Source of the DNA: Bacteroidota bacterium
Lineage (GTDB): Bacteria; Bacteroidota; Bacteroidia; Palsa-948
Assembly: GCA_003164895.1 (NCBI GenBank)
Contig: PLUL01000020.1
Coordinates: 1-64,000 of the forward strand
Direction of reading: 5' to 3'
Length of the DNA: 64,000 nt
Shown here: positions 6,003 through 20,184 of the stretch, one piece after another
Numbering within the stretch: the stretch's first letter is position 1
Layout: each line of letters starts with the position of its first letter
Translations under genes and position numbers: made by a program
The notes under the pieces: model-generated
Database searches by the model: none
What the model was told of the DNA's origin: nothing
What the model saw: only the letters and a program-made list of their open reading frames with translations

Positions 6003-7174
6003 TGAACAGCGCGCTGAAAATATTGCTGGTAGAAGATTCTGAAACGGATGCGGATTTGCTTGTACGATTTCTGCATAAGGAGAAAATTGATTTTAACCAT
6101 TCGCGGGTTTGGAACAGAGACGCCTTTGTAAATGCGTTAAAACAAAACAATCATGATTTAATAATTGCCGACCACTCGCTTCCTCAGTTTAGCGGAATGG
6201 AAGCTTTTCATCTTGCTAAAAGTGAAAATAAAAATATCCCTTTTATTTTGGTTACAGGAACAGTAACCGAAAATATTTTAGCCGAATATGCAAAGGAAGG
6301 AATTGACGATTATATTCTGAAAGAAAACCTTTTGCGTCTGCCATCAGCCATTGAACATGTACTCGGAAAGAAAAAGATAGAACTGTTGCACGCGAAATTA
6401 GAACTTGCACATAAGGATATTAAGGACAGCATTAATTACGCGAAAAAAATTCAGAATGCAATGCTTCCAGATACAACCTTGTTGCGCGATACTTTTCCAC
6501 AATCTTTTATTTTATTTAAACCAAAAGATATTTTGAGCGGAGATTTTTACTGGTTCAGAAAAGAAGAAAATAAATTTTTTATTGCGGCTGTTGATTGCAC
6601 CGGACATGGAATTCCTGGAGCATTAATGAGTATGATTGGCATAGAAAAATTAAACAATGTAATTCTCAAAACTAAAGAACCTGCGGAAATATTACAACAA
6701 CTTAATAAAAGTATTGAAGTTGCTTTGTGTCAATCCACGCTCTACGAACACAGTCAGGATGGAATGGACATGGGCATTTGTTCAATTGAAAAAGAAACTG
6801 GAATTCTAAAATATTCAGGGGCAAACAGACCTCTTTGGATTATTCGTCATGGGAAAAATGCAGTAGAAGAAATAAAGGGAACTAAAAAAGCAATCGGGGG
6901 ATTAACTCAGAAATTCAGCCCAAACTTTGAAAGCCATGAAATAAAATTACAACAAGGTGATACGTTTTATGTTTTTTCCGATGGTTATGCTGATCAATTT
7001 GGAGGCGATAAAAAACGAAAATTATTTACAAAAAGATTTAAGCAGATACTGCTCAGTATTCAGGACAAAACAATGCAGCAGCAAGAAAAATATTTAAACA
7101 ACTTTATTGAAGAATGGAAAGCAGGAGATGAGCAAATTGACGACATTTTAATAATCGGAGTGCGACAAGAATAG
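6002..7174 (+). CDS. Response regulator fused to SpoIIE/RsbU-type PP2C phosphatase
   Basis: 390 residues. An N-terminal receiver (about 5-120) has D57 in LIIADHSLP. A short coiled linker leads to a PP2C-type phosphatase domain (about 160-388) with the metal-binding motifs SGDFYWF, VDCTGHGIPGALMS, DGMDMGICSI, FSDGYADQFGG and the final DDILIIG. Such proteins dephosphorylate STAS-domain anti-anti-sigma factors in partner-switching stress systems. No STAS or RsbW-type kinase is encoded in this window, so the substrate is elsewhere or different. It ends the operon that starts at csbD, suggesting feedback on the regulon it controls. Confidence 0.88.
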   Translation: MNSALKILLVEDSETDADLLVRFLHKEKIDFNHSRVWNRDAFVNALKQNNHDLIIADHSLPQFSGMEAFHLAKSENKNIPFILVTGTVTENILAEYAKEGIDDYILKENLLRLPSAIEHVLGKKKIELLHAKLELAHKDIKDSINYAKKIQNAMLPDTTLLRDTFPQSFILFKPKDILSGDFYWFRKEENKFFIAAVDCTGHGIPGALMSMIGIEKLNNVILKTKEPAEILQQLNKSIEVALCQSTLYEHSQDGMDMGICSIEKETGILKYSGANRPLWIIRHGKNAVEEIKGTKKAIGGLTQKFSPNFESHEIKLQQGDTFYVFSDGYADQFGGDKKRKLFTKRFKQILLSIQDKTMQQQEKYLNNFIEEWKAGDEQIDDILIIGVRQE

Positions 7175-7265
7175 TGCATGACCCATGCACAAAAACTGAT
7201 TTATTCTTCCCTTTTAAATTCCATTAATAATTAAAAGTTACAATTCTTCTACATCTAAGCAGAAT

Positions 7266-7331
7266 GTGTGAATCATGTAACTTATTTCAAAAGTTATGTA
7301 GCAACTGCATGTTTAAAGCTGCGCACTTTTG
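7266..7331 (+). promoter_or_regulatory. 66-bp repeated stress promoter element, copy 2
   Basis: GTGTGAAT at 7266, TGTAAC at 7276, the second repeat as TGTAGC at 7297, and a CACTTTTG box at 7324-7331. The centre forms an inverted repeat (AACTT/AAGTT). The following ATG is at 7370, a leader of about 30 bases. It drives the T9SS type B protein and probably the collagen-like gene. Confidence 0.72.
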
Positions 7332-7369
7332 AAGTATAAATTTTAATTCCAAAATAAGGAAAACATAAA

Positions 7370-7906
7370 ATGAAAAAGCAAATTCTTATTGCTGTAACAA
7401 TCTTTCTTTTTTTATTCTGGAAGACCGGAACGGAGCGGTTGTGTGCTCAATCATTTTCACAAGAAGTAATTGGTTCGGCAGGAATGTTCACTACTTCAGC
7501 AAACGGTTCAATGACGTGGACTGTTGGCGAAGTGATGATAGAAACATATTCCTCCGCAGATAATTTTTTTACGCAAGGATTTCATCAGCCGGATACGAAA
7601 GCAGAGATACTACCACTGGCAACCATCTTTTTTATTCCTGAAGGATTTTCTCCAAATGGTGATGGAATAAATGATTTGTTCGTTATAAAAGGACTTGACA
7701 TGTATCCACATAATTCAATTGTAATTTTTAATCGTTGGGGAGATAAAGTTTTTGAAGCAAGTCCTTACCAAAATACTTGGGATGGCAAATCAATGGAAGG
7801 ATTACGAATAGGAGGAGATATATTACCGATAAGCACTTACTTCTATCTGTTTGATTTGGGTAATGGCTCAAATATTATTAAAGGAAGTATCTATCTGAAC
7901 AGGTAA
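7370..7906 (+). CDS. Small secreted protein with T9SS type B sorting domain
   Basis: 178 residues. An N-terminal signal peptide ends near LCAQ (about residue 27). A short region of about 50 residues follows, then a gliding-motility-type C-terminal domain (type B T9SS signal, about 85-178) with FSPNGDGINDLFVI, IVIFNRWGDKVFE, TWDGK and the closing IKGSIYLNR. The protein is nearly all sorting domain, so the mature passenger is tiny; it may be an anchor or adaptor on the cell surface. It is preceded by element copy 2 and followed 51 bases later by the collagen-like gene. Confidence 0.82.
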   Translation: MKKQILIAVTIFLFLFWKTGTERLCAQSFSQEVIGSAGMFTTSANGSMTWTVGEVMIETYSSADNFFTQGFHQPDTKAEILPLATIFFIPEGFSPNGDGINDLFVIKGLDMYPHNSIVIFNRWGDKVFEASPYQNTWDGKSMEGLRIGGDILPISTYFYLFDLGNGSNIIKGSIYLNR

Positions 7907-7957
7907 AATAAAAAATGATTTACAATTTGAACAACTAAAATAAGAATAACAAACACC

Positions 7958-9526
7958 ATGAAAAAACAAATATTAATATCAGCAAAATTTTTGCTGACTA
8001 TAGCAAGTCTTCTGCCGATATTTTCTTTCGCGCAAACACCGCAAGCATTCAGGTATCAATCCATTGTGCGTAATGCCACAGGCAGCCCGATGGCAAACTC
8101 AGCTATCAGCGTGAGAGCTACTGTTCTCGATGGTTCGGCAACAGGAACTTCGGTGTATCAGGAAATACATTCAATTACTACTAACCAATTTGGTTTGATA
8201 AATCTTGAAATAGGAAATGGAACAGCCGTGAGCGGAGCATTTCCAACTATTATTTGGGGAACAGGAACAAAGTGGATAGAAATAGAAGCCGACTTTGGAA
8301 ACGGTTATATCCCTATGGGAACTTCGCAACTAATAAGTGTTCCGTATGCACTTAATTGTGGCAATAGTATTCCGGGTCCAACCGGATTGACAGGCGCAAC
8401 TGGAGCTAATGGAAATAACGGAACAAACGGAACAAATGGTGCTGTTGGTGCAACTGGCTCGCAAGGAGTTGTAGGAGCAACTGGAGCTGTTGGTGCAACC
8501 GGAGCAACGGGTTTAATCGGTGCAACAGGTTTAGCTGGAACAAATGGTACAAACGGAACAAATGGTTCTATTGGTCTTACAGGATTGACAGGTACAACAG
8601 GTTCAGCAGGAACAAATGGTACGAATGGAATAAATGGAATTGATGGAACAAATGGTGCAGTTGGTGCAACTGGTGCTGCTGGTTCAGCAGGAACTAATGG
8701 TACGAATGGAACAAATGGAGCAGTTGGTGCAACGGGTGCAGCAGGTTCAGCAGGAACAAATGGTGCAGTTGGTGCAACTGGTTCAGCAGGAACAAATGGT
8801 ACAAATGGAATTGATGGAACAAATGGTGCTGTTGGTGCAACAGGCGCAACTGGTTCAGCAGGAACTAATGGTACAAATGGAATTGACGGAACGAATGGTG
8901 CGGTTGGCGCAACTGGTTCAGCAGGAACAAATGGAACTAATGGTATTGATGGAACAAACGGTATTGACGGAACAAATGGCGCAGTTGGTGCAACTGGTGC
9001 AACTGGTTCAGCAGGAATAAATGGTATTGATGGAACAAACGGAATTGACGGAACAAACGGCGCAACTGGTGCAACCGGTTTAGCAGGTAATTCAATAAAT
9101 AATTTTTCTGAATTCTTTGCATTGATGCCCGGCGATAATGCAGCGACCATTGCGCCAGGTACTGCGGTTCTCTTTCCGCAAAATGGATCAACAGATGGTG
9201 TGATGGTGCGGATAGATGCATCCACTTTCACATTACCTGCTATCGGAACATATCAAGTATTTTTTCAAGTTAGTGTATCTGAACCCGGGCAGTTAATGTT
9301 AGGTCTTGATTCAGGTTCGGGAGTTGTTGAAATTGCTAAATCGGTTGTGGGACGTACTGCAGCCACTACTCAAATTGTTGGAATGTCATTGATAACAACC
9401 ACGGTTGTGAATTCTATTCTCTCCGTGCGTAATCCATCTGGCAATAGCACGGCTTTAACAATTACACCTATCGCCGGAGGCACACATGCCGTTTCTGCAA
9501 ATCTTGTCATCACGAGAATAGGATAA
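7958..9526 (+). CDS. Secreted collagen-like repeat protein with BclA-like C-terminal domain
   Basis: 522 residues. The signal peptide ends at FSFA (about 25). An N-terminal beta-type domain (26-135) precedes a long Gly-X-Y tract (about 139-376) built of GTNGTNG, GAVGATG, GSAGTNG and GIDGTNG blocks. The C-terminal globular domain (about 385-522) resembles the trimerising TNF-like domain of exosporium BclA proteins. Thr in the Y position is typical of bacterial collagen-like filaments that are glycosylated, but proline is nearly absent. No T9SS domain is visible, so its route to the surface is unclear. It is likely co-transcribed from element copy 2. Repeat copy number may vary between strains. 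Confidence 0.85.
   Translation: MKKQILISAKFLLTIASLLPIFSFAQTPQAFRYQSIVRNATGSPMANSAISVRATVLDGSATGTSVYQEIHSITTNQFGLINLEIGNGTAVSGAFPTIIWGTGTKWIEIEADFGNGYIPMGTSQLISVPYALNCGNSIPGPTGLTGATGANGNNGTNGTNGAVGATGSQGVVGATGAVGATGATGLIGATGLAGTNGTNGTNGSIGLTGLTGTTGSAGTNGTNGINGIDGTNGAVGATGAAGSAGTNGTNGTNGAVGATGAAGSAGTNGAVGATGSAGTNGTNGIDGTNGAVGATGATGSAGTNGTNGIDGTNGAVGATGSAGTNGTNGIDGTNGIDGTNGAVGATGATGSAGINGIDGTNGIDGTNGATGATGLAGNSINNFSEFFALMPGDNAATIAPGTAVLFPQNGSTDGVMVRIDASTFTLPAIGTYQVFFQVSVSEPGQLMLGLDSGSGVVEIAKSVVGRTAATTQIVGMSLITTTVVNSILSVRNPSGNSTALTITPIAGGTHAVSANLVITRIG
8373..9088 (+). repeat. Collagen-type Gly-X-Y coding repeats
   Basis: About 716 bases of nearly repetitive DNA in 9-base triplet units, many reading GGAACAAATGGT, GCAGTTGGTGCAACTGGT or GGTTCAGCA. 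Larger blocks of 30-60 bases recur, so unequal recombination could change length without breaking the reading frame. Confidence 0.9.
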
Positions 9527-9568: not shown

Positions 9569-9634
9569 GTGTGAATCATACAACTTATTTCTAAAGTTAT
9601 GTAGCAATTGCGTGTTCGGGAGTACGCAACTTTG
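9569..9634 (+). promoter_or_regulatory. 66-bp repeated stress promoter element, copy 3
   Basis: GTGTGAAT at 9569, the first repeat degenerate (TACAAC), the second TGTAGC, and a CAACTTTG box at 9627-9634. Internal spacings are identical to the other copies. The first in-frame ATG of the next gene is only 5 bases after the box. Confidence 0.7.
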
Positions 9635-9638
9635 CTGT

Positions 9639-11096
9639 ATGAATATTCATGCACAAATAAATGCAATTAAACTAAAAAATAATTTTCAGTTTATTATAAT
9701 TGTTATTGCTTTACTGTTTTTTCCAAAGAATAATTTCGGACAGATTCCAAATTTGGGTACCGCTTCAAGTTTTGCATTGTTTACAGTAACCGGAGCTTTT
9801 GGAAATACCGGAACAACAAATATTACCGGAGATATTGGAACTAATGTTGGTGCCATAACCGGAAGCCCGATTGTATCAGGACAAATTCACGAGGAGGATT
9901 CTGTTACAGCCCAAGCCGCAGCAGATGTTGATAGTGCATATATTCAATTGAAGAGAATGAGTTGTGGCACTGTTTTGGGAAATATTTTAGGTAACAACGA
10001 TACGCTCATTCCAAATGTTTATTGTCTTGGAGGCGCTTCAACACTAAATGGAAATTTAATTTTAGACGGACAAGGAAATCTAAACGCAACATTTGTTTTT
10101 CAAATCGATGGCGCGTTTTCTGTAAACGCATTATCAAATATTATTCTGATTAATTCAGCAACCTTGTGCCACGTGTATTGGCAAATAAACGGAGCATTTA
10201 GTTTGGGAGATAGTGCCGTTTTCCAAGGAACTATTGTTGCTAATGGTGCAATCAGTTTGTTGGATAGTTCAAATCTTTTTGGCAGAGGACTTTCAATTGC
10301 CGGAGCTATTTCTCTTAATAATAATATTGTTGCCGTTGGTTCGCAACCCATTGCATCAATAATTTCTGCCGGTGGAGCAACCACATTTGATGAAGGTGAT
10401 AGTGTATTGCTTTCAGGAAACGATGGAGGAATTTGGTGTACCACAGCCATAACAGCTACCGTAAACATAAAGACAAGCGGCAATTATTGCGTAACAAATT
10501 CATGCGCTTGCGGAAGCGTAATTTCAAATTATATTTTAGTAACTGTTAATTCGGTTATTCTGCCGATAACACTTGTTTCTTTTATTGCAGAAAAGTGTAG
10601 CGCAAATTCATGTGTAAATCTAAATTGGCAAACTGCTTCTGAATCCAACAGTGCATATTTTCGTATTGAAAAATCAACAAACGGAATTAATTTTAATTCC
10701 ATTGGAGAGCGCAATGCAGCAGGAAACAGTTCCCAGTTGCTTTCTTATTTTTTTACGGATGAAGAACCTGTGCAAGGAATAAATTATTATCGCTTAAATC
10801 AAATTGACCTTAATGAAAATCAGAAATATTCTCAAGTAAAGTCAGTGAGTTTTTCCGATACAAACTTATCAGTGAGTATTTATCCTAATCCATTCAAAGG
10901 ACAGTTTAGTGTTTATAGTTTACAATCTAATATTCAATTGCAGATTTACAATTCAACAGGAAAAATGGTTTTTGAAACAAGTGTAAACAGAGAACAAGAA
11001 ACCATAAACTTAGGCGGTGCGAGTGGAATGTATTTTTACAAAGTGATTGGCGATAATAAAACTATTCAGTCGGGCAAATTGATTTCACAACAATAA
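9639..11096 (+). CDS. Ice-binding-like (DUF3494) secreted protein with T9SS type A sorting domain
   Basis: 485 residues from the ATG at 9639. The reading frame opens upstream at 9612, but that start lies before the -7 box. A signal segment (IIIVIALLFF) ends near NNFGQ. Residues about 36-235 match the DUF3494 ice-binding/adhesion fold: PNLGTASSFALFTVTGAFGN, GDIGTNVG, YCLGGASTLNGNLILDGQGN, repeated beta-helix turns. A C-terminal T9SS type A signal follows (VSIYPNPFKGQFSVYSL to the end). Known members bind ice or act as surface adhesins; which applies here is not shown. The ATG at 9639 implies an almost leaderless mRNA; an ATT codon at 9666 would be the alternative. Confidence 0.82.
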   Translation: MNIHAQINAIKLKNNFQFIIIVIALLFFPKNNFGQIPNLGTASSFALFTVTGAFGNTGTTNITGDIGTNVGAITGSPIVSGQIHEEDSVTAQAAADVDSAYIQLKRMSCGTVLGNILGNNDTLIPNVYCLGGASTLNGNLILDGQGNLNATFVFQIDGAFSVNALSNIILINSATLCHVYWQINGAFSLGDSAVFQGTIVANGAISLLDSSNLFGRGLSIAGAISLNNNIVAVGSQPIASIISAGGATTFDEGDSVLLSGNDGGIWCTTAITATVNIKTSGNYCVTNSCACGSVISNYILVTVNSVILPITLVSFIAEKCSANSCVNLNWQTASESNSAYFRIEKSTNGINFNSIGERNAAGNSSQLLSYFFTDEEPVQGINYYRLNQIDLNENQKYSQVKSVSFSDTNLSVSIYPNPFKGQFSVYSLQSNIQLQIYNSTGKMVFETSVNREQETINLGGASGMYFYKVIGDNKTIQSGKLISQQ

Positions 11097-13737: not shown

Positions 13738-13803
13738 GTGTGAATAATGTAACTTATTTTAAAAGTTATGTAATACTTTCCGAAATGAAGATGCTCATAT
13801 TTG
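13738..13803 (+). promoter_or_regulatory. 66-bp repeated stress promoter element, copy 6
   Basis: GTGTGAAT at 13738 (4 bases after the previous stop), TGTAAC at 13748, TGTAAT at 13769, and a CATATTTG box at 13796-13803. The centre TAACTT...AAGTTA is a near-perfect inverted repeat. It drives bacterioferritin (ATG 13848). Confidence 0.75.
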
Positions 13804-13847: not shown

Positions 13848-14327
13848 ATGAAAGGAAATAAAAAATTACTCACCGTTTTGAATTCGCTTTTGGCGGACGA
13901 ACTAACCGCCATTAACCAATACATGGTGCATTCTGAAATGTGCAACAATTGGGGTTATAAAAAACTTCGTCTGGATATAAGAAAACAAGCGATGGATGAA
14001 ATGCATCATGCCGAGTGGCTTATTGAGCGAATTATTTTTTTGGACGACTCGCCAACCGTATCCAAACTGAATACGATAAGAATCGGAAAAAATGTATTGG
14101 ATATGATCAATAACGATAGCAACGATGAACTTGAAGCTGTGCGCACCTATAATGAAGCGATCAAACTGGCTCATGAAGTTGGTGATGAAGGTAGCGTTGC
14201 TCTGCTGACCAAGATACTGAAAATGGAAGAAGGACATGTGGAATGGGCAGAAATACAACGTGCGCAGATCGCGCAAATGGGTATGGAGAATTATTTGGTT
14301 AATCAAACAGAAATTTCTGCAACCTGA
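13848..14327 (+). CDS. bfr: Bacterioferritin
   Basis: 159 residues, the normal length. It stores iron as a ferric mineral in a 24-mer and uses peroxide or oxygen at its di-iron site, which lowers Fenton chemistry. The ferroxidase ligands fall at E. coli Bfr numbering: E18, E51, H54, E94, E127 and H130, plus Y25. The haem-ligand position M52 is present. So this looks like a true haem-binding, ferroxidase-active bacterioferritin. It is controlled by element copy 6, in line with the catalase under copy 1. Confidence 0.95.
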   Translation: MKGNKKLLTVLNSLLADELTAINQYMVHSEMCNNWGYKKLRLDIRKQAMDEMHHAEWLIERIIFLDDSPTVSKLNTIRIGKNVLDMINNDSNDELEAVRTYNEAIKLAHEVGDEGSVALLTKILKMEEGHVEWAEIQRAQIAQMGMENYLVNQTEISAT

Positions 14328-14382: not shown

Positions 14383-14712
14383 ATGGAAAATAATTTAAAA
14401 GTAAATGCAGCGCTAGATCAAAAGATCGGGAAAATAGAAAAGGAGATTCAACCTGCTCTCTATGAACAAAGTTTTGATACGACAAGCATTAATGGAGAAA
14501 CCGAGAAGGAATTGAATGCAAAGATCCTGAAGATAACCATGACGATAAAAGATAAATATCCGGAGCTGTCTAAATATATTGAAGAAATGCCTGTAACCAT
14601 TCCAGATGTAAAGCATCCGGAAGTAACCCCGAATAATTTAAAAGCATATTATGATTCGCTGAATTCAACTTTGAGTAAATACATTTTGGAACATCCGATT
14701 AAGGCAAAATAA
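14383..14712 (+). CDS. Small acidic/helical protein, function unknown
   Basis: 109 residues from the ATG at 14383. A longer frame from 14236 overlaps bfr and is unlikely. The sequence has KIGKIEKEIQPALYEQSF, then LSKYIEEMPVTIPDVKHPEV and a helical end. No signal peptide. It begins 55 bases after bfr, so it is probably read from the same promoter. Not recognised. Confidence 0.6.
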   Translation: MENNLKVNAALDQKIGKIEKEIQPALYEQSFDTTSINGETEKELNAKILKITMTIKDKYPELSKYIEEMPVTIPDVKHPEVTPNNLKAYYDSLNSTLSKYILEHPIKAK

Positions 14713-14786: not shown

Positions 14787-15650
14787 GTGAAGCACCTTCG
14801 GTTACCTTTTTCGTTTTTTTTAATGCCGGTCTTTTTATTTGCTTTAAGTCAGGCAAATACCATTAATTGGCAGACAGCAATTCTTGCATTTGTAATTTTA
14901 CATCTGCTTGTTTTTCCTTCCAGCAACGGGTATAACAGTTATCAGGATCGGGATGAAACCAGCATTGGAGGATTAAAGCATCCTCCGAAAGTTTCTGAAA
15001 ATTTATTTTATGCTACACTTATGCTGGATGTGGTTGGCATCTTGAGTGCTCTGATTATTTCTGTTTACTTTTCTTTTTTTGTTTTGATCTTCGTGGGTAT
15101 GTCACGGGCTTACAGTTACCGAAATGTGCGATTAAAGAAATATCCTGTCATTGGATTTCTAACGGTATTTATTTTTCAGGGAGCGTTTGTTTATCTGATG
15201 GCTTCTTCTGCAATTACTGATTTTTCAATGGATACATTTTTTACGCTCAATAATACCATTTGCATGAGCGTGGCAAGTTTTTTTATTGGCAGTATTTATC
15301 CACTCACTCAAATTTATCAGCACGATGCAGATAAAAAAGACGGAGTGATCAGCATCAGCTACAAGCTTGGATATATTGGCACTTTTATTTTTTCCGCACT
15401 GCTATTTGCAATAGCAACCATTTTCTTATTCTACTTTTTCCATTTAAAACATCAGCACATTGCTTTGGTATTGTTTTCATTAATAATGATTCCTGTTGTC
15501 ATTAAATTGTCCCTTTGGTTTAACAAAGTTCGCAGGGATACAGTGCATGCAGATTTTGAAAACACAATGACAATGAACTTGCTGACATCAACCTGCATGA
15601 ATTTGTATTTTTTGTTGCTGATACTAAATAATCATTTCATCTGGTTTTAG
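14787..15650 (+). CDS. UbiA-family prenyltransferase
   Basis: 287 residues, GTG start, about eight membrane helices. The first Asp-rich motif is NGYNSYQDRDETSIGG (about 47-62), with the D-x-D pair that binds prenyl diphosphate via Mg2+; the second loop has QIYQHDADKKDG (about 176-187). UbiA enzymes attach an isoprenoid chain to an aromatic or quinoid ring in the membrane. The stop is one base before the polyketide synthase start, and an isopentenyl-diphosphate isomerase closes the cluster, so the acceptor is probably the polyketide product. No element copy lies directly upstream; transcription may come through bfr. Confidence 0.85.
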   Translation: MKHLRLPFSFFLMPVFLFALSQANTINWQTAILAFVILHLLVFPSSNGYNSYQDRDETSIGGLKHPPKVSENLFYATLMLDVVGILSALIISVYFSFFVLIFVGMSRAYSYRNVRLKKYPVIGFLTVFIFQGAFVYLMASSAITDFSMDTFFTLNNTICMSVASFFIGSIYPLTQIYQHDADKKDGVISISYKLGYIGTFIFSALLFAIATIFLFYFFHLKHQHIALVLFSLIMIPVVIKLSLWFNKVRRDTVHADFENTMTMNLLTSTCMNLYFLLLILNNHFIWF

Positions 15651-15651
15651 C

Positions 15652-16752
15652 TTGAGTAAAATTATTTCCATAGGAACAGCAGTGCCTAAATACGGTACAA
15701 AACAAATTGCACTATTGGATTTTATGCATACAGCATATAAAGATGATTCTGCCTCACGTAAGCTAAAAATACTATTTCACCATAGCGGGATAAATACCCG
15801 TTATTCAGTAATTCCTGATTTTGATACCAGTAATACAGAACACTATCTTTTTAATGGAAATCCCGAGCCTCCAACTGTTGAAAAAAGGTTAGGACAATAT
15901 AAAGAACATGCGGTTTCACTTGCTATAGACGCAATTCAGAATTCATTAGAAAAGATCAATACAACTGTATCGGAGTTTGGTATCACGCATTTAATTACGG
16001 TTTCCTGTACCGGGATATATGCGCCCGGTATTGATACAGAGATCATGGAGCAATTGGATTTGCCGAATGATATTTTTCACACCTCCATCAATTTCATGGG
16101 TTGTAATGCGGCATTTCCTGCATTAAAAATTGCAGATATGATTGCCAAAACAGATGAACAGGCAAAAGTGCTGATCATATGTGTGGAATTGTGTACCATC
16201 CATTTTCAGCCAAAGGATGATCATGATAATTTATTATCGAACACCATTTTTGGTGATGGAGCTGCGGCTGTTATTGTTGTGTCGGATACAGCGGCTAAAC
16301 AAAATCATCAAGCCGGGTTGACTATAAATGGATTCTACTCCTTGCTTCTTAACAAAGGAAAAGATCTGATGGGCTGGAATATTACACCTATTAATTTTGA
16401 AATGATCCTGGATGCGAAGATTCCTGAATTCATTGGCGAGGAAGTAAATGAAATTGTTTTGAAAGCAGGAAAAAAATTAAATATAAAACCTTCAGCAATT
16501 AATAAATGGGCAATACATCCGGGCGGAAAAAAAATATTAGACACGATAAAAAAACAATTGCAATTGAATGATGCAGATATGCAGTATTCGTACAACGTAT
16601 TGAATGAATATGGAAATATGTCGTCACCAACCATTTTGTTCGTCTTGAATGAAATCATGCAAACCGAGCACGAACCAAATGAAACGATTTTCTCCATTGG
16701 TTTTGCACCGGGATTAAGTATTGAAACCGCCTTGTTTACTTATGTCGAATAA
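15652..16752 (+). CDS. Type III polyketide synthase
   Basis: 366 residues, TTG start one base after the UbiA stop. Chalcone/alkylresorcinol synthase-like thiolase fold with the catalytic triad visible: Cys151 in NFMGCNAAFPALK, His289 in WAIHPGGKKIL and Asn322 in EYGNMSSPTILF. It condenses malonyl-CoA onto an acyl-CoA starter to give a resorcinol, pyrone or related phenolic product. Starter preference cannot be read from sequence. The neighbours (prenyl-, methyl-transferase, flavin hydroxylase) suggest a decorated phenolic lipid or meroterpenoid. It overlaps the methyltransferase gene by 11 bases. Confidence 0.93.
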   Translation: MSKIISIGTAVPKYGTKQIALLDFMHTAYKDDSASRKLKILFHHSGINTRYSVIPDFDTSNTEHYLFNGNPEPPTVEKRLGQYKEHAVSLAIDAIQNSLEKINTTVSEFGITHLITVSCTGIYAPGIDTEIMEQLDLPNDIFHTSINFMGCNAAFPALKIADMIAKTDEQAKVLIICVELCTIHFQPKDDHDNLLSNTIFGDGAAAVIVVSDTAAKQNHQAGLTINGFYSLLLNKGKDLMGWNITPINFEMILDAKIPEFIGEEVNEIVLKAGKKLNIKPSAINKWAIHPGGKKILDTIKKQLQLNDADMQYSYNVLNEYGNMSSPTILFVLNEIMQTEHEPNETIFSIGFAPGLSIETALFTYVE

Positions 16753-17470
16753 ATTTACATATCGGTCCGATGAAAAGGAATTGCTCGATAAACCAAATAT
16801 CAATCGTGGTTTACTAAACAAAAACCTTAGAGAACTTGATATTCTTAACAGGACAACCGGAGGGCACGCTATTTCGTTAAAAGGAATAAAACAATTAATT
16901 ACTGATCATGATAAGATATATCATGTTGTTGATTTAGGATGTGGCAGTGGCGATGCGTTAAAAGTCATTGCTGATTGGACACGGTTAAATAATTACAGTG
17001 TAAGGTTAACCGGTGTGGATATGAATGTCAATGCAATTGATTATTTGAAAATCCATTGTGTAAATTATCCGGAGATCAGCGGCATTACCACAGATTACCA
17101 GGATTACCTTAATAAAAATGAGGTAATTGATATTGTACATTGTTCTTTGTTTTGTCACCATTTAAATGACGATGAACTGTTACGTTTATTTATTTATTTC
17201 AGGCAACATGTTAAAACCGGTTTTATTATCAACGATCTGCAGCGGCACTGGCTGGCATATTATAGCGCATGGGTTTTTACACGGTTATTGAATGGTACGG
17301 AACTGGCAAAAAATGATGGACCTATCTCTGTTTTACGCGGGTTCAAATCCGGTGAACTTATTTATTTGCTTAACCAAACAAACATCGTAGACTATTCAAT
17401 TCAAAAAGAATTGCTGTTTCGATTTTTGATTGTTGGAAAAACAGAAAAGCATGAATCAATTGCAAGATAA
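16742..17470 (+). CDS. Class I SAM-dependent methyltransferase (polyketide tailoring)
   Basis: 242 residues from the ATG at 16742; an upstream TTG at 16721 is less likely. It has the Rossmann motif I HVVDLGCGSGDALKVIADW (about 61-79) and an acidic strand end at GVDMN. The pattern FCHHLNDDEL after motif III is shared with methyltransferases beside bacterial type III PKS genes. It overlaps the PKS gene upstream by 11 bases and the monooxygenase downstream by 20, which argues for tight co-translation. Likely O- or C-methylates the PKS product. Confidence 0.82.
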   Translation: MSNKFTYRSDEKELLDKPNINRGLLNKNLRELDILNRTTGGHAISLKGIKQLITDHDKIYHVVDLGCGSGDALKVIADWTRLNNYSVRLTGVDMNVNAIDYLKIHCVNYPEISGITTDYQDYLNKNEVIDIVHCSLFCHHLNDDELLRLFIYFRQHVKTGFIINDLQRHWLAYYSAWVFTRLLNGTELAKNDGPISVLRGFKSGELIYLLNQTNIVDYSIQKELLFRFLIVGKTEKHESIAR

Positions 17471-19055
17471 AACAACCGAAGTTCTTATTGTTGGTGCCGG
17501 ACCTTCAGGACTGATGATGGCGTGTCAGCTGGCGATTCATGGTATTCATTTTCGTATCATTGATAAGAAAGAACATGCTGTCACTTATTCCGGTGCATTA
17601 ATCGTTCATGCAAGAACTGTAGAAATTTTTAACCAGATGGGAATTTCTGAAAAAGTAGTGGAGGAAGCAATTATTGCCAATGTTCTGAGTATCTTTTTCA
17701 ACGGAAAAAAAACAATTCAGATTTCTTTAAAAGATATTGGGCAAGGGCTTACAAAATTCCCAAATTTGTATCTGATAGAGCAATCAAAAACGGAACAACT
17801 ATTAATTGACTTTGTTTCTGCTCAGGGTTTTTCTGTTGAAAGAAGAACAGAATTGAAAAGTTTTACTCAGGATGAAACAGGTGTTACTTCTGTTCTAAAA
17901 CTCGCTGATGGAAAAGAAGAAACTATAAAAACAAACTATTTAATTGCTGCTGATGGCGGACACAGCATTGTTCGTGAACAATTAAAAATTCATTTCGTCG
18001 GTAAAATGCACCCTGTATCTTTATTTATTATTGATTGCAAAGCAGAACTTGATTTACCCTCTGATGAAATGTGTTTTTCATTTTCAGATGCTTCCACCTC
18101 AGGATTTTTCCCAATGAAAAATGGAAGAAAGCGCATAGATGGAGTGATACCTAAGGAATTGGAAGGTAACGAACATATTACATTTGATGACATAGAAAAA
18201 AAATTTGCAGAAAGACTTCGCATGAAAATCAAGTTATACAATCCTGAATGGTTTTCTGTTTCTCATTCGAATCAGCAATATGCTTTATCCTATCAAAAAA
18301 ATCGTTGTTTCTTAGTGGGAGATGCGGCACATACTTTCACTCCGGTTGGCGCACAAGGTATGAATACAGGATTACAGGATGCTTATAATTTGGCTTGGAA
18401 ACTCGCGTTTGTAATTAAGGGAAAAGCAAAGAGTACACTTTTTGATACTTATTCTGCCGAAAGGCAAAACATCGCGAAAAAGTTGGTGCGCTCTACCAGC
18501 AGAATATATAATCTGGTAACAAGTCAAAATAGTTTTACTAAAACATTTCGCCTGCATGTGCTTACACACCTGATGAAATGGATATTACCTCTTATAGAAA
18601 AACAAAAATCTTTTCGCCAGTTTTGTTTTAACGCCATATCCGAAATTGGAATTAATTACAGGAAAAGTCCATTATCGCAGGGTGCATCCACAGGCAATTT
18701 TCCGGATTGTGCACCGCACCCGGGCGACAGGTTACCTTATCTGGTATTTAATGATAATGATAAAGAAATAAATATCCAGGAAAAAATAAAAGGGACTGAC
18801 TTTACACTTTTCCTTTTTGCTAAGGATTCTCCTCCACTTGAAATTATAAAAGTTGCAGAAAAATATAAAAATGTGTTATCCTTTGAAACTATTCCATTTA
18901 CATCAGAAACAAAATTACTGTATGACCATTTTGGTATGGAGAATGGCGGTTGTTATCTTATCCGGCCAGATATGTACGTTGCTTTTCGGTCAGCTACGTT
19001 GAATCCCCATTATTTGAATAATTATTTACAACAGTTCCTGGTGCTTCACCAATAA
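17451..19055 (+). CDS. FAD-dependent aromatic monooxygenase (group A)
   Basis: 534 residues from the ATG at 17451. The FAD-binding start VLIVGAGPSGLMMACQLA (about 12-29) and the second FAD motif CFLVGDAAHTFTPVGAQGMN (about 286-305) with GLQDAYNLAWKL define a phenol hydroxylase/PHBH-type flavoenzyme. A C-terminal thioredoxin-like region (about 430-530) as in PheA/TfdB relatives is plausible. It would hydroxylate the aromatic ring made by the PKS, perhaps leading to a quinone. Co-translated with the methyltransferase. Confidence 0.88.
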   Translation: MNQLQDKTTEVLIVGAGPSGLMMACQLAIHGIHFRIIDKKEHAVTYSGALIVHARTVEIFNQMGISEKVVEEAIIANVLSIFFNGKKTIQISLKDIGQGLTKFPNLYLIEQSKTEQLLIDFVSAQGFSVERRTELKSFTQDETGVTSVLKLADGKEETIKTNYLIAADGGHSIVREQLKIHFVGKMHPVSLFIIDCKAELDLPSDEMCFSFSDASTSGFFPMKNGRKRIDGVIPKELEGNEHITFDDIEKKFAERLRMKIKLYNPEWFSVSHSNQQYALSYQKNRCFLVGDAAHTFTPVGAQGMNTGLQDAYNLAWKLAFVIKGKAKSTLFDTYSAERQNIAKKLVRSTSRIYNLVTSQNSFTKTFRLHVLTHLMKWILPLIEKQKSFRQFCFNAISEIGINYRKSPLSQGASTGNFPDCAPHPGDRLPYLVFNDNDKEINIQEKIKGTDFTLFLFAKDSPPLEIIKVAEKYKNVLSFETIPFTSETKLLYDHFGMENGGCYLIRPDMYVAFRSATLNPHYLNNYLQQFLVLHQ

Positions 19056-19079
19056 TTTTTAATCTTAAATTCATAAACG

Positions 19080-19511
19080 ATGAGATCATTTATCTTCTGG
19101 CAACGATGGTTATTTTTCAGCAGCATTTTATTTGCCGTGTTCGGGATTGTTTTTGCCGTATATGGAAATAATCCTTTTTTTATGCCTTATAATAAAGCGC
19201 TTGCCCACGTTTTTTGGTCAAGCGCAAATATACCCGCTGAGACAGAAACGTTCAGAGCTTTTATATGGGGACCGTTAGGTGGCACCATTGCCTGTTGTTA
19301 TATTTTACTGGCATTTATAGCATGGTTCCCATTCCAGAGAAAAGAGCGTTGGGCACGAAATGCAATTATGGTTGCATTCGGAGTGTGGGTACTATTGGAT
19401 TCGGCTGCTTGCCTCTATTATAGTGTATATTTTCAGATTTATATCATTAATGCATTTTCCATACTGGTAAAAGCACTTCCGATAATTTTCACATGGAAGG
19501 AATTTAAATAA
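19080..19511 (+). CDS. Four-helix membrane protein of the PKS cluster, function unknown
   Basis: 143 residues with four predicted membrane segments (about 9-30, 63-84, 92-112, 118-138). No recognised motif. It lies 24 bases after the monooxygenase and 55 before idi, in the same direction, so it is probably part of the cluster. It may help handle a hydrophobic product. Confidence 0.55.
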   Translation: MRSFIFWQRWLFFSSILFAVFGIVFAVYGNNPFFMPYNKALAHVFWSSANIPAETETFRAFIWGPLGGTIACCYILLAFIAWFPFQRKERWARNAIMVAFGVWVLLDSAACLYYSVYFQIYIINAFSILVKALPIIFTWKEFK

Positions 19512-19566
19512 TGGAGATGGAAAGTTCATATAATTTTTACTATCAGATCAATTAGAAAATTTTAAA

Positions 19567-20124
19567 ATGGAAAATAAAAAAGTTATTCTGGTAGATGAAA
19601 ATGATATTCCAGTAGGAGCTATGGAAAAAATGGAAGCTCATAGGAAAGGAGAGCTACATCGTGCCTTTTCCATTTTTATTTTCAACTCTAAAGGAGAATT
19701 ATTGCTTCAAAGAAGGGCTGTGGATAAGTATCATTCAGGTGGACTCTGGACAAATACCTGCTGCAGTCATCCTCAGCCGGGAGAAAACCTACAGGAATCG
19801 GTACATATACGTTTGTATGAAGAAATGGGTTTTTCATGTGATCTTGAAAATATTTTTCATTTTATCTACAAATCCAAATTGGATCATGGACTAATTGAGC
19901 ATGAATTGGATCATGTTTTTATAGGATATTATGATGAAAATCCAAAAATAAATATTCATGAAGTTGTCGAATGGAAATATATGCCAGTTGATCACATAGA
20001 ACAAAATATGAAATTAAATCCTACCCATTACACCGCTTGGTTTAAAATATGTTTTACTAAAGTTTTAAAATACATTCAACAGGAGAATAGCACAGCGCTT
20101 TCTGAACAAATATTGAATGTGTGA
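19567..20124 (+). CDS. idi: Isopentenyl-diphosphate delta-isomerase, type 1
   Basis: 185 residues, Nudix-fold type 1 enzyme that interconverts IPP and DMAPP. Visible: HRAFSIFIFN, LLLQRRAVDKYHSGGLW, catalytic Cys66 in NTCCSHPQPGE, the Nudix-like helix ESVHIRLYEEMGF and the metal/catalytic Glu in EHELDHVF (about 111-113). It would supply DMAPP-derived prenyl donors for the UbiA enzyme in the cluster. Its stop codon (20122-20124) is inside element copy 7. Confidence 0.95.
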   Translation: MENKKVILVDENDIPVGAMEKMEAHRKGELHRAFSIFIFNSKGELLLQRRAVDKYHSGGLWTNTCCSHPQPGENLQESVHIRLYEEMGFSCDLENIFHFIYKSKLDHGLIEHELDHVFIGYYDENPKINIHEVVEWKYMPVDHIEQNMKLNPTHYTAWFKICFTKVLKYIQQENSTALSEQILNV

Positions 20125-20184
20125 ATGATGTAACCTAATTCTATAATGATATAACACTCATTGAAGCAAAATGGTTGTCCTTTG
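20119..20184 (+). promoter_or_regulatory. 66-bp repeated stress promoter element, copy 7
   Basis: GTGTGAAT at 20119 overlaps the idi stop codon. TGTAAC lies at 20129, ATAAC in the second repeat, and a GTCCTTTG box at 20177-20184. This is the most divergent -7 box of the set, but spacing is unchanged. The downstream ATG is at 20207. Confidence 0.65.

Follow-up and report, generated by a model that had tools for sequence, protein, structure and literature searches.

Six plus-strand genes lie between positions 14787 and 20124 of a 64,000-nucleotide stretch (hereafter the window; contig PLUL01000020.1) from a Bacteroidota bacterium of the class Bacteroidia. In order, they encode a UbiA-type membrane protein, a type III polyketide synthase (PKS), a methyltransferase (MT), an FAD-dependent aromatic-ring monooxygenase (FMO), a small membrane protein of 143 amino acids (g143), and an isopentenyl-diphosphate isomerase (idi). 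The cluster is confirmed: every gene named in the original prediction lies where it was placed and has Pfam or NCBIfam matches, and its list of UbiA, PKS, MT, FMO and idi needs only the addition of g143, which it had overlooked (Table 1). The overlapping or nearly touching genes it described can be read directly in the sequence for the first four members, with the UbiA stop at 15650 followed by the PKS start at 15652, the MT ATG (16742) lying ahead of the PKS stop (16752), and the FMO ATG (17451) ahead of the MT stop (17470). As it had also observed, the idi stop codon (TGA, 20122-20124) falls within positions 20119-20134, inside a copy, starting at 20119, of a 66-nucleotide promoter-like element that recurs in the window. 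This arrangement is not due to chance, since the same gene order recurs in dozens of genomes.

Table 1. Features of the cluster and its flanks in the window.
Feature	Coordinates	Strand	Basis
Regulon promoter element, 66 nucleotides, ahead of bacterioferritin	13738..13803	+	58 bits
Bacterioferritin (bfr)	13848..14327	+	TIGR00754 143 bits, cut-off 125.6
Open reading frame of 109 amino acids between bacterioferritin and UbiA	14383..14712	+	Open frame
UbiA-superfamily membrane protein, atypical PKS-linked subfamily	14787..15650	+	Pfam UbiA 52 bits, curated cut-off 34.2
Type III polyketide synthase; C151, H289, N322, W242	15652..16752	+	Pfam domains, PKS18 alignment
Class I S-adenosylmethionine methyltransferase, PRK06202-like	16742..17470	+	Methyltransf_25 40 bits
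FAD aromatic-ring monooxygenase (FMO), PRK06184-like	17451..19055	+	FAD_binding_3 282 bits
g143, conserved small membrane protein of 143 amino acids	19080..19511	+	Relatives adjoin PKS elsewhere
Type I isopentenyl-diphosphate isomerase (idi)	19567..20124	+	TIGR02150 123 bits, cut-off 105.8
Next regulon element, overlapping the idi stop codon	20119..20184	+	End mark of inferred operon

The PKS contains both chalcone/stilbene synthase domains above their cut-offs (Chal_sti_synt N, 93 bits; C, 77 bits) together with the Cys-His-Asn triad of type III enzymes. The triad, C151-H289-N322 exactly as originally numbered, aligns with that of PKS18, among the closest solved structures, and is invariant in all 94 PKS sequences aligned. 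PKS18 is also the source of an alternative, that the enzyme makes an alkylpyrone rather than an alkylresorcinol; its orthologue group in Mycobacterium marinum has been described as forming alkyl-pyrones (PMC5916927). Against this, W242 is kept in 81 of the 94 relatives at a position that is Val in PKS18, a Trp has been linked to resorcinol formation in ArsB (PMC9927152), and the aromatic hydroxylation expected of the FMO is most sensible on a phenol ring. We consider a pyrone product distinctly improbable.

The motifs of the flavin and isomerase proteins are intact too. The FMO retains the motifs GAGPSG, DGGHSIVR and GDAAHTFTPVGAQG, has the GxGxxG, DG and GD motifs that define group A flavin aromatic hydroxylases, and shows a weak Rng_hyd_C match beside FAD_binding_3. 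Idi preserves the TNxCCSHP motif of type I isopentenyl-diphosphate isomerases, exceeds the cut-off of PRK03759 (166 bits) as well as that of TIGR02150, and is encoded by the sole type I idi gene in the genome.

The UbiA-type protein, in contrast to canonical members of its superfamily, lacks the NDxxDxxxD and DxxxD motifs. All 67 members of its PKS-linked subfamily carry NSxxDxD and YQHxxD instead (H179 in 66 of them), and D54, D56 and D182 are invariant. Because the altered motifs are fixed across the subfamily, we read them as a feature of these proteins rather than as decay. For the same reason prenylation is not established, so that of the product proposed in the original prediction the methylated, hydroxylated polyketide phenol stands and the prenyl group does not yet. 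The product could instead be a plain, unprenylated alkyl-methoxyhydroquinone or quinone, the UbiA-like protein acting on a different acceptor, using an acyl or lipid substrate, or carrying out a cyclisation. No solved UbiA structure matches the window protein by sequence, and cassettes in Psychrobacter and Deinococcus have no adjoining UbiA gene, both in keeping with such a role; the three invariant aspartates and the repeated placement of idi beside the cluster speak for prenylation, as does an Actinoplanes cluster whose product is prenylated (Awakawa 2011, as cited in PMC7587189 and PMC10896814). An unprenylated product is a serious contender, if one we place short of even; in our preferred reading the phenol probably receives an isoprenoid unit from the UbiA-like protein.

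Structures predicted from two-row alignments (mean pLDDT 40 for UbiA, 53 for g143) were too poor for a fold search, and no UbiA relatives were found on plasmids. The start codon of the UbiA gene is uncertain, as homology to loci L010, L041 and L045 continues upstream of the GTG at 14787. Between 14745 and 14790 the frame is homologous to that of L045 and the DNA is nearly identical (ATCATATCGTGGTTTGATAAAA), and the ATG of L045 has no counterpart in this interval; the gene may in fact begin at a rare start codon, ATT or ATC.

Among 395 genomes of the class, 111 (28%) encode a relative of the PKS at E<=1e-15. The commonest neighbourhood in the fetched loci is UbiA, PKS, MT and a GGR-like flavoprotein (GGR being a flavoprotein of the geranylgeranyl-reductase superfamily), and this conserved order gives a positive answer to the comparison with other Bacteroidota that had been proposed as a check. 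In the PKS and UbiA trees the window groups with L010 and L041-L045 (support 100/100), the nearest relatives among the UbiA-PKS-MT-GGR clusters; they have homologous UbiA, PKS and MT genes in the same order, with PKS sequences 65-76% identical to that of the window. They differ in what accompanies this core: a GGR-like flavoprotein and, in this nearest clade, an SDR, in the place taken by FMO-g143-idi in the window. A search of the window's genome for relatives of the L010 GGR found none at E<=0.001, and the FMO occupies the slot of the usual GGR-like flavoprotein. The FMO was accordingly rejected as the usual fourth gene of such clusters; close homologues occur in just 3 of the 395 genomes, each with UbiA-PKS-MT nearby and each also holding copies of the element.

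The accessory genes follow a distribution of their own. L071 and L072 encode FMOs that share 80-83% identity with that of the window. The PKS (37-41% identity to the window's) and UbiA of these two loci fall in a distant clade. L011, from another collection, has the order PKS-MT-FMO-g143 with an FMO of 45% identity. Relatives of g143 at 60% identity or more occur in 6 genomes, all 6 with the PKS (leaving out the window's genome, the chance for the other five is about 0.0016, uncorrected for kinship), and g143 adjoins the cluster in L011, L051, L072, L080 and L151. The idi gene directly follows GGR in L147, L148 and L150 (gaps of 9-18 bp) and follows the FMO in L071; it adjoins the cluster in two other families. 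These placements of idi point to a functional tie between the cluster and isoprenoid supply, and lend backing to the role of supply gene first suggested for it. More broadly, the comparison points to a combination of FMO, g143 and idi with different UbiA-PKS-MT cores. In L072 a single reading frame between MT and FMO (7016-8659) contains DJ-1/PfpI and di-haem cytochrome c peroxidase domains. Two plasmid loci, L181 (Psychrobacter urativorans plasmid 5) and L182 (Deinococcus radiodurans), have a type III PKS beside an MT and an FAD oxidoreductase, without UbiA; the L182 flavoprotein is closer to the window FMO (24%) than to the Bacteroidia GGR.

The 66-nucleotide element consists of GTGTGAATNATGTAAC, 15 nucleotides, TGTAAC, 25 nucleotides and TTTG, which closes the Bacteroidota -7 box (TAnnTTTG). 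Eight copies, all on the plus strand, start at 311, 7266, 9569, 11105, 12953, 13738, 20119 and 22131 of the window, in an island that includes genes for catalase, CsbD, YceI, bacterioferritin, universal stress proteins and PPK2. GC content (35.6% in the island, 36.4% in the remainder of the window) gives no foreign signature. A second island on contig C54 (L061) has ten copies, all on the same strand, and a few lie elsewhere in the genome. At up to three mismatches the element is matched in 134 of the 395 class genomes, some of which hold 10-33 matches against 0-1 for a reversed control; the pattern occurs 26 times in the window's genome, 33 times in G103, and 23 times each in G219 and G088, the reversed control giving 0. 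The element appears to mark a broad stress regulon of the Bacteroidia, of which we found no description. Within the genus, sampled as seven genomes that were also the full reach of the searches at family and order level, the six other than the window's own lack the PKS and have 0-2 element matches, which makes the cluster, and with it most of the regulon, accessory in this genus.

A weight matrix built from own-genome copies alone, scanned over 1.28 Mb of PKS loci, returned 16 matches of at least 17 bits (reversed control maximum 14.4). A second scan upstream of each cluster, tolerating small spacing changes, gave 28-37 bits for L162, L071, L072, L041, L010 and L150 and at most 6.8 for all others, against a maximum of 15.5 in 2741 background pieces. 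The UbiA-PKS-MT-flavoprotein gene set is tied to the stress regulon, since in five other loci (L010, L041, L071, L072 and L150; 28-36 bits) the element directly precedes UbiA, starting 80-151 bp upstream. The neighbours in L071 and L072 are OsmC, DJ-1, LEA, a di-haem peroxidase and PPK2. Across the class, a PKS is found in 24 of 42 genomes with at least five elements versus 87 of 353 others (Fisher p 2.7e-5, uncorrected for kinship). In L162 and L164 the element stands ahead of another kind of type III PKS (28-30% identical), with a gene for an ICMT-family protein next in line (L162:7582-9145, minus strand; L164:544-2105, plus strand); here the regulon would have recruited phenolic-lipid genes independently. 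This pair recalls bpsAB/srsAB.

In the window itself, an element immediately before UbiA was rejected (best score -4.5 bits), so that the link to the stress regulon in the original prediction is borne out by the five other loci and not at this position. The nearest upstream copy is that at 13738, ahead of bacterioferritin, with none between it and 20119. Between 13738 and 19038 the prediction gave no plus-strand terminator-like site, a single weak hairpin where the FMO gene ends does not exceed chance, and the gaps from bacterioferritin to idi are short. The 109-residue frame among these genes has no Pfam or NCBIfam match. Co-transcription of bacterioferritin through idi from 13738 would be the simplest reading. 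Alternatively, the cluster could lie beside the stress island only by chance and be transcribed without any part in the regulon, as might be argued from the missing element ahead of UbiA, the six sampled members of the genus without a PKS, and an FMO whose nearest relatives differ from those of the PKS and UbiA. Independence sits poorly, however, with the element directly ahead of UbiA in five other loci, with the PKS-MT pair alongside in 4 of 4 FMO-bearing relatives or stress-type loci, and with a next element that starts at the idi stop; we regard it as very unlikely.

Other genes that the element precedes include a secreted protein with long collagen-like G-x-y repeats (window 7958-9526) and an Ice_binding-like (PF11999) secreted protein with a secretion tail (9612-11096). 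On contig C54 an element at L061:19394 precedes a gene for a Crp/Fnr-type regulator that lacks a cysteine cluster of the FNR kind (L061:18542-19336, minus strand), a possible autoregulated master regulator. It is a lead at most, because relatives occur in 286 of the 395 genomes, including members of the genus with almost no elements. The relatives elsewhere are longer frames of about 350-370 amino acids, perhaps fused to another domain.

The cluster is a variant of known alkylresorcinol and alkylquinone clusters. In general, PKS-MT-flavoprotein cassettes produce alkylresorcinols that are then methylated and oxidised on the ring to methoxy-alkylquinones, which serve mycobacteria and Streptomyces as alternative electron carriers (PMC9927152). 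Closest to the window in overall logic is agq of Actinoplanes missouriensis, in which, as summarised in PMC10896814, a type III PKS product is prenylated and hydroxylated to alkyl-O-dihydrogeranyl-methoxyhydroquinones. This cluster is actinobacterial and was compared by description, not by sequence; by family, the window has the agq-type gene content of PKS, MT, flavin hydroxylase and UbiA-family protein together. A methyltransferase and a UbiA-like prenyltransferase belong to the agq cluster as well, which is not known to include idi, g143 or the stress-regulon element.

The window likewise has the layout of pkqABC (Mycobacterium smegmatis) and srsABC (Streptomyces griseus), with genes for a type III PKS, a methyltransferase and a flavin hydroxylase or oxidoreductase adjacent on one strand. 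SrsB is an ICMT-type enzyme, whereas the window MT is class I, and the likeness drawn here is one of gene logic. The two systems are described as three-gene operons without UbiA or idi, differ from the window in phylum and regulation, and are linked to dormancy or oxygen limitation (PMC9927152). The same three activities are encoded, in gene orders unlike that of the window, by hidABC of cyanobacteria and by planctomycetal MT-FAD oxidoreductase-PKS operons. The available excerpts of PMC10896814 and PMC8086630 describe alkylresorcinol products for these, the planctomycetal members included, report a prenyltransferase in one cyanobacterial cluster only, and mention no link to a stress regulon. 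Our literature search found no paper on a Bacteroidetes type III PKS with UbiA.

By analogy with the srs/pkq/hid and agq systems, the product is likely an alkylresorcinol-derived methoxyhydroquinone or quinone lipid, probably a methylated and hydroxylated phenolic lipid and perhaps one with an isoprenoid tail. We infer a chemistry in which the PKS would use malonyl-CoA to build an alkylresorcinol on a fatty acyl starter, the MT would methylate this, and the FMO would hydroxylate the ring to a methoxyhydroquinone that can be oxidised to the quinone. The UbiA-like protein would add an isoprenoid unit, with Idi raising the supply of dimethylallyl diphosphate and g143 serving as an accessory membrane protein. 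Transcription would run from the promoter at 13738 to the next element at 20119, and production of the lipid would accompany that of catalase, bacterioferritin, universal stress proteins and PPK2. That a stress-linked operon of bacterioferritin, the 109-residue frame, UbiA, PKS, MT, FMO, g143 and idi makes a redox-active membrane phenolic lipid is an account we favour, if by a modest degree.

Several points weigh against it. The altered aspartate motifs of UbiA make the prenyl step the least secure; UbiA in the window has no element directly ahead of it; and the cluster lacks the element in most class genomes, including most of the UbiA-PKS-MT-GGR type, so the stress link is not universal. The match of W242 to ArsB Trp281, which would mark a resorcinol- rather than pyrone-forming enzyme, is a candidate one. 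Product, starter and expression are predictions from the genes.

A different function is also conceivable for such a lipid. It could serve mainly as an alternative respiratory electron carrier, a polyketide quinone used when oxygen is scarce or cells are dormant, as with pkqABC, with which the cluster shares its PKS-MT-flavoprotein logic and whose product PkQ has been described as an alternate carrier in hypoxic biofilms and spores (PMC9927152). The FMO, however, requires O2, no respiratory enzymes were identified among the scanned neighbours, and these neighbours act in general stress or oxidative-stress defence (catalase, bacterioferritin, CsbD, YceI, universal stress proteins, PPK2); a mainly respiratory role therefore seems unlikely to us. 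Because the neighbours are stress genes, a protective membrane lipid is favoured; the membrane antioxidant of the original prediction is one candidate role, with electron carrier and membrane modifier as the others. More tentatively, and with some doubt, we suggest that type III PKS lipid pathways were drawn into the regulon marked by the element on several occasions, represented by a PKS-ICMT pair and by UbiA-PKS-MT clusters of two distant clades, and that the window makes a prenylated polyketide quinone via an atypical UbiA and a swapped-in FMO-g143-idi, a redox lipid made under stress like PkQ. We know of no such lipid in Bacteroidota.

What is new here is the regulatory link across distant PKS clades, the exchange in the flavoprotein slot, g143 as a partner, and caution over UbiA. 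A widespread, uncharacterised UbiA-PKS-MT-flavoprotein set of the Bacteroidia is tied to stress defence through a common promoter element, and its function is thereby open to direct tests. Should the UbiA subfamily prove to prenylate with its altered motifs, phenolic-lipid chemistry would gain a new enzyme type, and if the product is a redox quinone, polyketide quinones made under stress would reach beyond the Actinobacteria.

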